The notes beneath the pieces are model-generated. The model was not told the origin of the DNA and ran no database searches. It saw nothing but the letters and a program-made list of their open reading frames with translations. 39,744 nucleotides of DNA from Acidaminococcus intestini DSM 21505. GTDB lineage: Bacteria; Bacillota; Negativicutes; Acidaminococcales; Acidaminococcaceae. The stretch lies in assembly GCF_000425045.1 (NCBI RefSeq), contig NZ_AULA01000024.1, forward strand, positions 1 through 39,744. The letters run 5' to 3'. A program made the translations under genes and the position numbers. Positions 21,294 through 29,745 of the stretch are shown piece by piece. Numbering within the stretch: the stretch's first letter is position 1; each line of letters starts with the position of its first letter.

Positions 21294-21387
21294 TAAAGCC
21301 CTATGGAAATAGACCACCGGACGGTGTCACAGAAGCCGATAGAAGCGCATTTCTGCACCAGACATACCATCATCATAGAGAAACAGC

Positions 21388-21437
21388 AAAAGGGAATCCC
21401 CATCCAAACAAGGTTTGGATGGGGATTCCCTTTTTTT
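21388..21437 (+). terminator. Strong plus-strand terminator without a plus-strand gene
   Basis: Arms of 22 bases (21388-21409 and 21413-21434) pair perfectly around a 3-base loop and run into seven T. No plus-strand gene lies between this and the TRAP operon terminator a kilobase upstream, so it may close an unseen transcript. Confidence 0.85.
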
Positions 21438-21442
21438 CTAAA

Positions 21443-21472
21443 AAAAGACCGCCGCAAATGCGACGGTCTTTT
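21443..21472 (-). terminator. Intrinsic terminator of nifJ
   Basis: AAAAGACCG pairs with CGGTCTTTT, with an inner CGCA/TGCG helix; the minus strand then shows a T-run. It lies 11 bases past the nifJ stop. Confidence 0.85.
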
Positions 21473-21482
21473 GAAGACTCAA

Positions 21483-24995
<3,513 letters not shown>

Positions 24996-25073
24996 TCAAA
25001 GCCCCTCTTTCTTAGAAAAGTGACTGATCTGGGATGAACGATATCATTCCATTCAGTCTCTCTAATCTCCTGT

Positions 25074-26871: not shown

Positions 26872-26925
26872 AGTCCATTGGGAAAAGGCCAATAAGCACC
26901 CTACTCCCTTTCCCCAAGACATCAA

Positions 26926-26966
26926 AAAGGGCTTGCTGAACACTTCCTGTTCGGCAAGCCTTTTTT
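26926..26966 (+). terminator. Intrinsic terminator of thiC
   Basis: GGCTTGC plus TGAACA pair with TGTTC plus GGCAAGCC around a short loop, followed by six T. It also faces the end of the convergent small membrane protein gene, with A-runs on the other side, so it may work both ways. Confidence 0.8.
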
Positions 26967-26977
26967 CATAGGAAAAG

Positions 26978-27433
26978 TCAGATCTGGCCAATAGCCTTTA
27001 AGATGATTTGGGCAATGATGGCAGAACCCAAATAGGTGCCGGCAAATATGACGCAGCTCAAGATAACGATGCGCCACCCTGTCGACTTAAAGGCATCCAT
27101 ATCCTTACCGATGGAAACACCGGCATAGGCAAGGATGAGCGTACAAAGAGAAACAAACCCGACTTTCTTCATATAAAAGTTGATGACATCACTTCCAGGA
27201 AACCCCGGATACGTCAATATACAGCCTAACGTCACAACATAGGCAACAGCAGGAATCTTTCCCGGCATATATTTGCCAAGAAGGATCCCCGCCATGGAAA
27301 TCCCTACAAGGATCAACAGCCCGGGCAGGCCTTCAATCACACCGCCAGCGCCGGAAAGGGCATTGGAAATCGCCCCTTCGATACTCATGAGAAGCAGGAT
27401 AGCAAAAGTTTCTGCTAAATTATATCCAATCAT
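26978..27433 (-). CDS. Small polytopic membrane protein, partner of DUF3100 protein
   Basis: 151 residues with about four hydrophobic segments (FAILLLMSIEGAISNAL, LLILVGISMAGILLG, FVSLCTLILAYAGVSIG, IVILSCVIFAGTYLG). I cannot name a family with certainty. The last half (AYAGVSIGKDMDAFKSTGWRIV) resembles the end of secondary carriers such as KdgT/GltS-like transporters, where a glycine-rich helix is followed by a charged loop. The frame extends upstream to 27481, but I chose the ATG at 27433 because GGAGGAAG precedes it and it overlaps the DUF3100 stop (TAATG). It is the last gene of a three-gene operon and probably forms one complex with the DUF3100 protein. Confidence 0.75.
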   Translation of the reverse strand: MIGYNLAETFAILLLMSIEGAISNALSGAGGVIEGLPGLLILVGISMAGILLGKYMPGKIPAVAYVVTLGCILTYPGFPGSDVINFYMKKVGFVSLCTLILAYAGVSIGKDMDAFKSTGWRIVILSCVIFAGTYLGSAIIAQIILKAIGQI

Positions 27434-28227
27434 TATTCTTCCTCCTTCGTGAGTACGTGACCATATTTTACGATACAGCACTTTTTATAGAGGTATTCCG
27501 TAAGCGGCAGGGCGAGCCAAATCGACATATAAAGCCCATCGAGGCCAGAGAGCATATTGCTGGCAGCACCAAAAGCAGCCAGCTGGTCTGCCATCTGGGG
27601 ATACATGACGGCAAGCGCACCGACAGCGGACGACATCATACTTGCACTGCCAACGCCAGATGCCATGGCAAGCGCGTAAGGATGAAAGATTCCAAGGGCA
27701 GCGCAGAAACTGGCCATGAGACCAAAGAAAATCGTTCCGAAAACAGTGCCGCTGATATAAACACCCATAACACCGCGACCTTCTGGGGTATCAAGGCCAT
27801 AGCGCTCACCGACAAGGGCAATATTCGGTTCACGGGCTATGGAATGGGCCGCACCGATGGTTTCCCGCTTGAGTCCAAAGAACACGGCAAGCGGTACCCC
27901 GACAAGGACGGTGCCCAAGTTTCCAAATTCCTGTAAAATCAAGGCCGGACTGGCGCTGATGATCTTGGGCAAGGTTGGTCCCACAAGGGTCCCATAGCGG
28001 GCCATGAGGAGCATGAGCGTCAGCCCTATCAAGGAACTTGCATCTTCCATTTCCTTTTGCTTCATAATATTAAGGAAGCGCGGCGTCGTAAAGATTCCGA
28101 TGATGAGGGCATAAAGCATGGGCAGCAGCACAATCTTTCCTGGGCCGACACTGAAGGATTTAACGCCAATCAGTTCCGCAATCACGATCATGAGCATGAC
28201 ACAGACATGCAGTTTGATGTTCTTCAT
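27433..28227 (-). CDS. DUF3100 family membrane protein
   Basis: 264 residues with seven or eight hydrophobic segments. It opens KLHVCVMLMIVIAELIGVKS and contains glycine-rich, carrier-like stretches: VGVPLAVFFGLKRETIGAA, GERYGLDTPEGRGVMGVYI and ALAMASGVGSASMMSSAVG. I recognise the DUF3100 family from these blocks; its biochemical role is not established. It overlaps the upstream M20 amidohydrolase by four bases (ATGA) and the downstream small membrane protein at TAATG, so the three are translated as a unit. The best guess is the main part of a carrier for the substrate or product of the amidohydrolase. Confidence 0.8.
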   Translation of the reverse strand: MKNIKLHVCVMLMIVIAELIGVKSFSVGPGKIVLLPMLYALIIGIFTTPRFLNIMKQKEMEDASSLIGLTLMLLMARYGTLVGPTLPKIISASPALILQEFGNLGTVLVGVPLAVFFGLKRETIGAAHSIAREPNIALVGERYGLDTPEGRGVMGVYISGTVFGTIFFGLMASFCAALGIFHPYALAMASGVGSASMMSSAVGALAVMYPQMADQLAAFGAASNMLSGLDGLYMSIWLALPLTEYLYKKCCIVKYGHVLTKEEE

Positions 28228-29552
28228 GGTTCCTCCTCGCTGAAATAGCTGTCCAGTTTCTTGATGTAGGCATCCTTGGTGAGGATGGGTTCATAGTGAT
28301 CCAAAAGAGCTTTGGCTTTTTGGGCATTGTCCGCCAGAAGATCAATGACCATACCGGCAAAAGCCTTGCCAGGCAGAAGCGCTGCCGCGTTAAAGTCGAC
28401 AACCTTGAAATCGGCGCCGTGAAGGAGCCCGTCCGTTCCCCCAATAAAAGGATGGATAGCGGGCATAAGATGAGAAACGTCTCCCATATCTGTGGAAGCA
28501 CTGAAATGGCCGGCATTGATGATCTTGACACTGGGGAACGCTTCCTTGGCATTTTCCACCAGAAGTTCATTAAGTGTGGCGTTGCAGACAAGGGGCAGAT
28601 GACCAGGCATCGTGTCGATGTGGACTTCGGCACCAATAGCCATACCGCCAGCCCGCAGGGCGGCATCGACCTTTTTATGGGTCTTTTCGATGGCCTCCAT
28701 CGTTTTGGCCCGCACATAGGTTTCAATCCGTACATCATCGGGAACATTATTTACAAGGTCCCCGCCTTTGGTAATGATTGGATGAACGCGAATGGCGTCT
28801 TCATCGCGGAATGTCTCCCTGAGGGAATTGATGCCCATAATGCCAAGCATGGCTGCGTTAAGTGCGTTGATGCCCTGATCAGGCGCGTCAGCAGCATGAG
28901 CGGAGCGTCCTACATATTGGATGGTCTTACCAACAAATCCGTTGCTGCTCGTACCAACTGCAACCGTCGGTTCCGGCGTTTTCTTGCTGGAATGCATCTG
29001 CATGGCCATATCAATATCATCAAATTCGCCTTCGTAGATAAGCTGGCCCTTACCGTGAAGATAGTGGAGCTTACCTTCCCTGCGCAGTTTCTTTCGGTAA
29101 GCAAGCTGGACATATTCTTCGGCAGGAACGGCAAAGAAAACGACATTGCCGCAAAGCTCATCAAGCGCATGGGTACGGGCAAGCCCATAAGCGGCGGCGA
29201 GCATTGCGGACTGCTGCATATGGTGTCCGCAGGCATGGGCCGCGCCCGTGTCGGGATCAGCCAACGGATGATCCGGGGAACTGATAGCGTCCAGCTCTCC
29301 TAAGATGGCAATGGTAGGTCCTGGCTTCCCGCCTTTGAGAAGGCCTTTTACACCCGTAATAGCAAGATGGTTCCGGTAGGGAATCCCCAGTTTATCAAAT
29401 TGAGCCTCTACCTTTTTTGCCGTCTTGAATTCCTTGAAACCAAACTCAGGTTCCTTGGCCACGCTTTTGGCATAGTCAAAGAGCTCATCGTAAGCGGCAT
29501 CAATCGCAGCAAAAACCTTTTCTTTCAGTGCAAGCTTATCCGTAGCAATCAC
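28224..29552 (-). CDS. M20 family amidohydrolase (AbgB / aminobenzoyl-glutamate hydrolase-like)
   Basis: 442 residues. Metal-binding M20 motifs are ILGELDAISSPDHPLADP, the GAAHACGHHMQQSAML block and FAVPAEEYVQLA with the general-base Glu pair; a dimerisation domain begins about residue 195 (IQYVGRSAHAADAPDQGIN). The closest named relatives are AbgB-type hydrolases that cut amide-linked glutamate or other N-acyl amino acids in the cytoplasm. The GTG start is chosen because GAGGAC lies seven bases upstream and the good promoter at 29591-29619 fits it. It is first in the operon with the DUF3100 and small membrane proteins, which suggests an uptake-and-hydrolysis pair. Confidence 0.88.
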   Translation of the reverse strand: MIATDKLALKEKVFAAIDAAYDELFDYAKSVAKEPEFGFKEFKTAKKVEAQFDKLGIPYRNHLAITGVKGLLKGGKPGPTIAILGELDAISSPDHPLADPDTGAAHACGHHMQQSAMLAAAYGLARTHALDELCGNVVFFAVPAEEYVQLAYRKKLRREGKLHYLHGKGQLIYEGEFDDIDMAMQMHSSKKTPEPTVAVGTSSNGFVGKTIQYVGRSAHAADAPDQGINALNAAMLGIMGINSLRETFRDEDAIRVHPIITKGGDLVNNVPDDVRIETYVRAKTMEAIEKTHKKVDAALRAGGMAIGAEVHIDTMPGHLPLVCNATLNELLVENAKEAFPSVKIINAGHFSASTDMGDVSHLMPAIHPFIGGTDGLLHGADFKVVDFNAAALLPGKAFAGMVIDLLADNAQKAKALLDHYEPILTKDAYIKKLDSYFSEEEP

Positions 29553-29590: not shown

Positions 29591-29619
29591 AGTATACGAC
29601 CATATACCAGCTTTATCAA
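29591..29619 (-). promoter_or_regulatory. Promoter of the M20-DUF3100 operon
   Basis: Minus strand TTGATA (29619-29614) and TATACT (29596-29591) are 17 bases apart, about 40 bases before the GTG start. Confidence 0.75.
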
Positions 29620-29701: not shown

Positions 29702-29745
29702 AAAAAGCACCCTTTTTGCAGAAAACTGCAAAAAGGGTGCTTTTT
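29702..29745 (-). terminator. Intrinsic terminator of the glycerate kinase gene
   Basis: A perfect 20-bp stem (29702-29721 with 29726-29745) with a 4-base loop and T-rich ends lies 10 bases after the kinase stop. It would work on either strand. Confidence 0.9.

Follow-up and report, generated by a model that had tools for sequence, protein, structure and literature searches.

A DUF3100 protein and a small membrane protein, encoded with an M20 amidohydrolase, as a candidate split RHR carrier

Split membrane carriers of the RHR fold-type, in which one helix lies between two reentrant helices, have already been described in outline. PMC8396727 places this fold-type in PSE, LrgAB and Lys_export and names two forms divided into a small and a large subunit, LrgA/LrgB and LysA/LysB; DUF3100 is not among the 23 families of its Table 1, and a literature search for the name DUF3100 found no paper. 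Here we analyse a window of 39,744 nucleotides from Acidaminococcus intestini DSM 21505 (contig NZ_AULA01000024.1; "the window" means this whole stretch), in which a DUF3100 membrane protein is encoded between an M20 amidohydrolase and a 151-aa membrane protein lying 3' of DUF3100, for which we use the label SML. The module that DUF3100 and SML form with their amidohydrolase partner is real and widely conserved. We read the two membrane proteins as a third split carrier of the RHR type, a new variant in which the gene order is reversed and the orientation probably flipped. We favour, with moderate confidence, a reading of the whole operon as a split CPA/AT-type RHR carrier importing an N-capped amino acid that M20 would uncap.

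The three genes lie on the minus strand. An open reading frame (ORF) with a GTG start at 28224..29552 encodes the M20 amidohydrolase (442 aa); DUF3100, the proposed large carrier subunit, follows at 27433..28227 (264 aa; PF11299, E 1.4e-103), and SML, the proposed small subunit and second scaffold block, at 26978..27433. We count SML from its ATG (151 aa), while in the mechanical ORF list an upstream GTG serves as its start (167 aa). At the M20/DUF3100 junction, CCATGAAG, the TGA stop of M20 overlaps the ATG of DUF3100 (ATGA); at the DUF3100/SML junction, GAATAATGATT, the TAA of DUF3100 overlaps the ATG of SML (TAATG). Both junctions can be read directly in the sequence, as a first-pass annotation made from the letters alone had reported.

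The pairing of DUF3100 with SML is constant. Two separate searches of 398 genomes from the phylum, one for DUF3100 with PF11299 (E 1e-3) and one for SML with profile A5 (E 1e-6), hit an identical set of 29 genomes. Three of these (G243, G332 and G374) carry two copies each of DUF3100 and SML if fragments of split DUF3100 genes that lie side by side are counted as one gene. A smaller sample taken earlier, of 149 genomes and overlapping with this one, contained DUF3100 in 11 and SML, strongly, in the same 11; at E 1e-3 the SML search touched one extra genome there, through an ABC-type membrane protein, and in two of those 11 genomes it also touched a 2HCT carrier and a sodium/proton exchanger.

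We then compared 133 loci. Their sources were the sampled genomes, plasmid records and, out of at least 557 related public-genome stretches, the 80 best; close relatives are over-represented among the loci and some entries are repeats (L011/L012, probably L003/L058). SML adjoins or is fused to DUF3100 in every locus (133/133, duplicates included). Spacing in the 125 unfused loci peaks at -4 (n = 23), -1 (n = 21) and +3 (n = 14), a pattern beyond what chance would give. The two proteins are fused in the remaining 8, always with DUF3100 first: in Psychrobacter (L016), a member of Tissierellia (L084), Comamonadaceae (L190), Agrobacterium leguminum (L192), Variovorax (L195), Arthrobacter (L196), a Klebsiella plasmid (L197) and a genome of the window's class (L237). 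These fusions thus span alpha-, beta- and gamma-Proteobacteria, Actinomycetota and Tissierellia in addition to the window's own class. DUF3100 and SML very probably form one complex. The contrary view, that they are independent membrane proteins merely co-expressed, draws on the fact that their interaction is argued from prediction and gene pairing; it is hard to square with invariable adjacency, the eight fusions, occurrence in the same 29 genomes and one joint fold, and we regard it as very improbable.

To obtain that joint fold, the natural fusion L084 (450 aa) was modelled as one chain from an alignment of 17 rows, namely L084 and 16 in-frame neighbour pairs read through the first stop. 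The model reached a mean pLDDT (predicted local distance difference test) of 81.3 and a pTM (predicted template modelling score) of 0.80, with pLDDT below 50 only at residues 1-7 and in the linker at 275-290. All 50 matches shown by VIA, a second-look aligner, are CPA/AT- or BART-type carriers, judged from their titles. The best is AspT (9oqy; Z 14.0, 286 residues), which covers model range 6-445 and hence both halves, and others are NhaP (Z 13.3), OadB (13.0), NapA (12.7), ASBT (11.8) and SbtA (11.3); CitS aligns at Z 13.2 over 306 residues, model 4-445 on CitS 46-386. GltS, PSE, DUF819 and KdgT, which belong to CPA/AT families, are not among the 50 matches shown, and this excludes nothing. 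The first-pass annotation had suspected a split carrier and proposed that co-occurrence, gene fusion and a shared fold be examined. Each of the three came out in favour of that idea: the genes keep constant company, they occur as single proteins, and the natural fusion is predicted to form a single fold, whose two halves both take part in the alignments to AspT, CitS, NhaP and further carriers of the elevator type.

In the model of the window's DUF3100 alone (67 alignment rows; pLDDT 88.2, pTM 0.80), four helices come first; a broken hairpin, a single helix (148-178) and another broken hairpin follow, and a long helical stretch closes the chain. Two broken hairpins parted by a single helix correspond to the RHR definition. 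Residues 1-118 (27874..28227, minus strand; model helices 4-21, 36-46, 57-91 and 93-116) would make up a first scaffold block. The first broken hairpin occupies residues 122-142 (122-126/132-142; 27802..27864, minus strand), with R132 and E133 invariant in two alignments, and the second occupies residues 183-208 (183-190/195-208; 27604..27681, minus strand), with a conserved GxGSxSM motif at the break. The earlier count of about 8 and 4 helices is better given, from the model lists, as 6 helices plus 2 broken hairpins for DUF3100 and about 5 helices for SML.

How these elements are shared between the subunits can be judged from CitS, whose chain runs scaffold 1, core 1, scaffold 2, core 2. DUF3100 alone aligns with CitS 9lsk at Z 12.0 over 226 residues, spanning chain positions 51-446, and with four other entries at Z 9.7-10.0. 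In two further CitS entries it is residues 1-182 of DUF3100 that align, at positions 265-445 (Z 5.2-5.5), and in sodium/proton exchangers residues 1-182 are spread along the chain (Z up to 7.9). As VIA prints just the end points of aligned ranges, we infer from the models that scaffold 1 and the two core halves would belong to DUF3100 and scaffold 2 to SML. Unlike the single-chain 2HCT carriers such as CitS (PF03390), in which scaffold 2 lies between the core halves, DUF3100/SML would thus carry its second scaffold as a separate protein, or at the C-terminus in fusions.

This assignment agrees with the counts of lysine plus arginine (K+R). K+R in DUF3100 is high, at 2.4 at the N-terminus, 3.1 in the 45-62 loop, 1.9 in the 114-124 loop and 4.8 at the C-terminus; in SML it is high, at 1.6 in the b/c loop and 3.2 in the d/e loop, versus 1.3 at the N-terminus and 1.2 in the c/d loop, a modest contrast. 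On this distribution DUF3100 is predicted to have both termini inside, and SML its N-terminus inside and its C-terminus outside. The charge counts are compatible with either reentrant or membrane-crossing hairpins.

Sequence profiles provided a second line of evidence, more informative for SML than for DUF3100. SML just passes the cut-off of LysO (PF03956), with 25.5 bits against 23.8 for residues 66-144 on positions 3-80 of the 190-position model; SML is thus not entirely lacking relatives, which qualifies the first-pass picture of two membrane proteins with no established function. In profile-profile comparison (hhalign; profiles sml2 and duf2 unless stated), SML matched LysO-large at 90.4% over 38 columns, 2HCT at 84.3% over 107 columns (SML residues 38-144 on 2HCT columns 288-396, those of the second scaffold) and LrgA at 73.6% over 111 columns. 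It matched the N-half of DUF3100 at 52.4%, a relation paralleled by LrgA and the N-half of LrgB (81.3%). Among 70 decoys, drawn from the remaining membrane proteins and protein families of these loci, the best SML match was 1.8%. Reversal of the second profile reduced four SML pairs and the LrgA pair to at most 0.6%, and gave 2.8% for DUF3100-LysO; the reversed 2HCT control used one sequence (64.2% unreversed). SML is a conserved family of its own that resembles LrgA and pieces of LysO and 2HCT, and the suspicion that it might be a truncated copy of a known transporter falls away.

Pfam searches at E 0.1 among 66 SML and 67 DUF3100 proteins gave no LrgA or LrgB match; PF03956 was matched by 26 of the 66 SML proteins and by none of the 67 DUF3100 proteins. 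Neither protein matches LysO over most of the 190-position model. DUF3100 matched the AspT/YidE duplication domain at E 0.011, below that family's cut-off. Searches of PDB sequences with profiles A5 and A6 and with an LrgB returned nothing relevant. Three results were set aside: 2HCT Pfam matches in 4 of the 66 SML proteins (best E 4e-4), given no weight because an unrelated glucosyl transferase family matches equally (4, 4e-4); a 98.2% match between profiles sml4 and duf4, whose SML set was probably contaminated by the DUF3100 halves of fusions; and alignment A3, which combined fusion, DUF3100 and SML rows and placed the SML rows on the DUF3100 part.

Several points count against the carrier assignment. 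The fusion model is a single chain built on 16 read-through pairs, and its pTM speaks to the interface only indirectly. Foldseek gave no PDB match at E <= 0.001 for the fusion or the DUF3100 model; Z values of 12-14 lie near the range, below about 13, where VIA warns that helical-bundle matches may be mere common arrangement; and DUF3100 alone, before trimming, reached Z 8 with 1 of 884 chains. On the profile side, SML matches the small LysO subunit at 0.3%, and the decoys are shallow, 52 of the 70 being single sequences. The DUF3100 profile scores 25% against LysO, 8-26% against PSE (a range covering profiles duf2 and duf4), 0.5% against LrgB and 0.2% against 2HCT, compared with 34.9% for its best decoy, P0003, and 4.3% for the next. 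P0003 is possibly a 2HCT-like carrier (E 0.21 only) and was kept among the 70. The filing of DUF3100 therefore rests on its predicted structure and its partner rather than on its own sequence. In our assessment the uniformity of the VIA carrier matches weighs more than any single Z, and we consider it likely that DUF3100-SML is a CPA/AT-type carrier.

P0003 (L035:9878-11071, minus strand) is an unannotated membrane protein of about 390 aa with no significant Pfam match and a weakly DUF3100-like profile. A similar-looking protein of about 390 aa is encoded at L077:4157-5329 (plus strand), a few genes before DUF3100-SML. A protein of this sort may be a single-chain relative.

One of the closest described systems is LrgAB/CidAB/PftAB (PF03788 plus PF04172). 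Like DUF3100/SML, it comprises a small and a large membrane subunit, the large one RHR in a published model; the small subunit resembles the N-half of the large one, and fused forms exist, as in the plant LrgAB fusion. There are also differences. The small frame lies just upstream in 24 of 24 LrgB loci (upstream side examined), whereas the DUF3100 gene precedes SML; LrgB is N-out in Table 1 of PMC8396727, whereas DUF3100 is predicted to be N-in and C-in, so that its orientation is probably flipped, as judged from sequence; LrgA has 4 helices and SML about 5; and DUF3100-SML, unlike LrgAB, is tied to amide hydrolases.

This resemblance raises the question of whether the pair, like LrgAB/CidAB, is holin-like or regulatory and affects the integrity of the membrane. 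The LrgA-like SML profile and the shared small-plus-large arrangement would suit such a role, but the usual links are to amide hydrolases and amino-acid enzymes, and PftAB, itself of the LrgAB type, is reported as a pyruvate transporter (PMC5626966). We have accordingly rejected a holin identity for the pair, and the wider holin-like or regulatory role seems highly unlikely.

LysO in its split form LysA/LysB (PF03956) is likewise a small-plus-large RHR carrier, and SML resembles its large part, not its small part. In the window's own genome, split LysO has the small gene first (103 + 207 aa), whereas DUF3100/SML has the large one first (264 + 151 aa), and the fusions keep this large-small order. 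That split LysO lies at C4:21962-22842 (L128:1172-2103) and consists of overlapping genes.

The third protein of the operon matches PF01546 and PF07687 in a Pfam scan and falls in the TIGR01891 subfamily (186.1 bits against a cut-off of 153.75). H106, C108, E145, E146, H187 and H378, which we take to form the metal site, are at least 97% conserved in an alignment of 49 rows. Against solved structures, the enzyme matched HmrA (E 9e-25), Xaa-Arg dipeptidase (E 2.6e-20) and an aminobenzoyl-glutamate protein (E 4.7e-9). Of the earlier label of an AbgB-like M20 hydrolase with complete metal motifs, the metal-site residues are borne out, while AbgB proved too specific, the enzyme being nearer HmrA and Xaa-Arg dipeptidase. 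An identity as the ectoine deacetylase DoeB2 was rejected, the window's M20 scoring 62 bits against a cut-off of 550; L014 and L019 score 348 and 340 bits on the same profile. The operon also resembles abgABT, in which an M20 hydrolase stands beside a carrier that would import its substrate. It differs in that the M20 is nearer HmrA and in that neither membrane protein matches AbgT in the Pfam scan, and an AbgT-like transporter was discarded as an identity.

To define the candidate cargo, we surveyed 102 loci with flanks, taking as near anything within 3 kb of the block, for genes and DNA alike (near DNA 561 kb, far DNA 614 kb). Of the 102, 84 have an amidohydrolase in the near zone: an M20 of the window's HmrA-like type in 50, an aminoacylase/CpsA-type M20 in 33 and an AstE/AspA-type enzyme in one (L185, whose own protein was the query). 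At one locus, L014, the amidohydrolase lies far from the carrier block. With the carbamoylase-type M20 named below, these make four kinds of amidohydrolase; such unlike enzymes, each cutting an amide at the amino-acid nitrogen, suggest N-acyl or N-carbamoyl amino acids as the cargo class. A qualification comes from 17 of the 102 loci, where the search used detected neither an M20 nor an AstE/AspA-type enzyme, so that the amidohydrolase partner is not obligate; four of these (L074, L077, L079 and L083) have a carbamoylase/allantoate-type M20, and L021 ends just before DUF3100.

The other neighbours give a hint of the amino acid. Enzymes of serine, threonine and glycine metabolism recur near the carrier in small numbers: serine hydroxymethyltransferase (SHMT; near in 4 loci versus far in 2), threonine-dehydrogenase-like (3 versus 4), glycine-C-acetyltransferase-like (3 versus 0), L-serine ammonia-lyase (1 versus 1), the threonine-dehydratase family (1 versus 1) and Rid (2 versus 0). 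M20, threonine dehydrogenase and glycine C-acetyltransferase are adjacent in L086 and, with a fused carrier, in L016; SHMT is followed by M20 in L029, L042 and L047 (L029 checked, the others by similarity to it); M20 occurs with L-serine ammonia-lyase in L197 and, near the carrier on the opposite strand, in L192; and L185 combines a threonine-dehydratase family member with Rid. Some of these accessory matches are relatives only: the L083 gene is unconfirmed as threonine dehydrogenase, and the L187 gene is annotated as an aminotransferase.

The recurrence favours a cargo of the serine/threonine type, an idea that we hold only tentatively. Such enzymes occur in a minority of loci, threonine-dehydrogenase-like genes are no commoner near than far, a transposase stands between L-serine ammonia-lyase and the carrier in L197, and the commonest accessory pair is ambiguous. 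That pair is a 3-hydroxyisobutyrate-dehydrogenase-like (HIBADH-like) protein, near in 15 loci versus far in 2, and an aldehyde dehydrogenase, near in 16 versus far in 2.

The same pair could point to pantothenate: versions with both dehydrogenases would degrade it, M20 acting as the pantothenase and the dehydrogenases oxidising pantoate. The frequency of the two genes fits, and so does the biochemistry of pantoate breakdown, which agrees with a two-step oxidation of a primary alcohol. Pathway versions with L-serine ammonia-lyase, threonine dehydrogenase or SHMT would be left unexplained, however; five loci have these dehydrogenases and no M20 by the search used, and pantothenate-specific genes were not noticed, though no search was aimed at them. 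Although the pantothenase protein was still without identification in 2023 according to PMC10393543, we judge this explanation very unlikely.

Two further observations concern the neighbourhood. On a Comamonadaceae plasmid (L190, 4908-8981), alanine racemase and D-amino acid dehydrogenase genes lie beside the fused DUF3100-SML, possibly a hint of D-amino acids. A conserved protein of about 148 aa is encoded soon after SML in 8 loci (for example L020:9391-9834), mostly in Phascolarctobacterium and relatives; its L020 copy had no Pfam or NCBIfam match at the limits used.

Taken as a mechanism, the split-carrier reading would run as follows. From DUF3100 would come scaffold block one together with the two broken hairpins that belong to the moving core, and from SML scaffold block two; the hairpins would carry cargo by elevator movement against the scaffold. 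The carrier would import an amino acid capped on its nitrogen (N-acyl, N-carbamoyl or peptide-linked), the co-translated M20 would remove the cap inside the cell, and the freed amino acid, probably often of the serine/threonine type, would enter serine/threonine/glycine metabolism. Elevator movement, import direction and substrate are all inferred here, and for the import of capped amino acids by DUF3100-SML we see the balance as about even.

The opposite direction deserves comparison: the pair might export the amino acid or acyl acid freed by the hydrolase, or exchange precursor for product. SML matches the lysine exporter family PF03956, the best structural match, AspT, is an Asp/Ala exchanger, and some 2HCT carriers are exchangers too. 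Against this stand the limited reach of PF03956, which matches just the 26 of 66 SML proteins counted above, and the need of the usual partner hydrolase for a substrate source; no other transporter family recurs directly beside it among the neighbour clusters viewed. Export or exchange thus appears unlikely, though less so than the other alternatives considered. Within the import reading, the most specific form would be a mirror-image elevator carrier, with gene order and orientation reversed relative to LrgAB/LysAB and one extra leading helix in SML, dedicated to N-acyl or N-carbamoyl amino acids of the serine/threonine type; in this full form the proposal is speculative. To our knowledge, N-acylated and N-carbamoylated amino acids of that type have no assigned importer.

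DUF3100 was found in Bacillota, Synergistota, Spirochaetota, Fusobacteriota, Pseudomonadota, Actinomycetota and haloarchaea, Haloferax volcanii being one carrier of the family, and in 70 plasmid records. A distant blastn search of E. coli genomes gave no DUF3100, and the protein search does find E. coli plasmids. On E. coli and Hafnia plasmids (L017 and L189), the DUF3100-SML-M20 set has a TdcA-like regulator next to it and transposases close by. With its plasmid location and neighbouring transposases, the DUF3100-SML-M20 module seems mobile.

DUF3100 is a Pfam family without an assigned function; with a constant partner, a type of fold and a class of substrate proposed for it, its role becomes testable. 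As a third split RHR carrier, in reversed order and probably reversed orientation, the pair would help to explain how elevator carriers came to be built from separate parts, and the association with amidohydrolases points to capped amino acids as a nutrient route for anaerobes of the gut and for soil bacteria.

Among the 80 top-ranking of at least 557 related stretches, the locus closest to that of the window comes from an uncultured Acidaminococcus (L051, 84%). The window's operon is preceded by a sigma-70-like promoter, TTGATA-17-TATACT, at 29591..29619 (minus strand, read 29619-29591), which matches 10 of 12 positions and is among the two best of 11 such sites in the region; shuffled sequence averages 8.1 matches, so the site alone is weak evidence. 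A terminator-like hairpin 3' of SML at 26924..26967 (minus strand; -22.5 kcal/mol, z -4.0) stands before the convergent thiC-like gene, and another at 29702..29745 (minus strand; -33.7 kcal/mol, z -7.4) lies between the upstream gene and the operon; neither is listed by a simple terminator scan. A promoter ahead of the operon and a terminator at its thiC end had both been anticipated in the first-pass annotation. Elsewhere in the window, a 1244-aa open frame on the plus strand (21303-25037) runs antisense to a complete 1169-aa frame (21483-24992), presumably that of pyruvate:ferredoxin oxidoreductase, and is probably a by-product of codon use.

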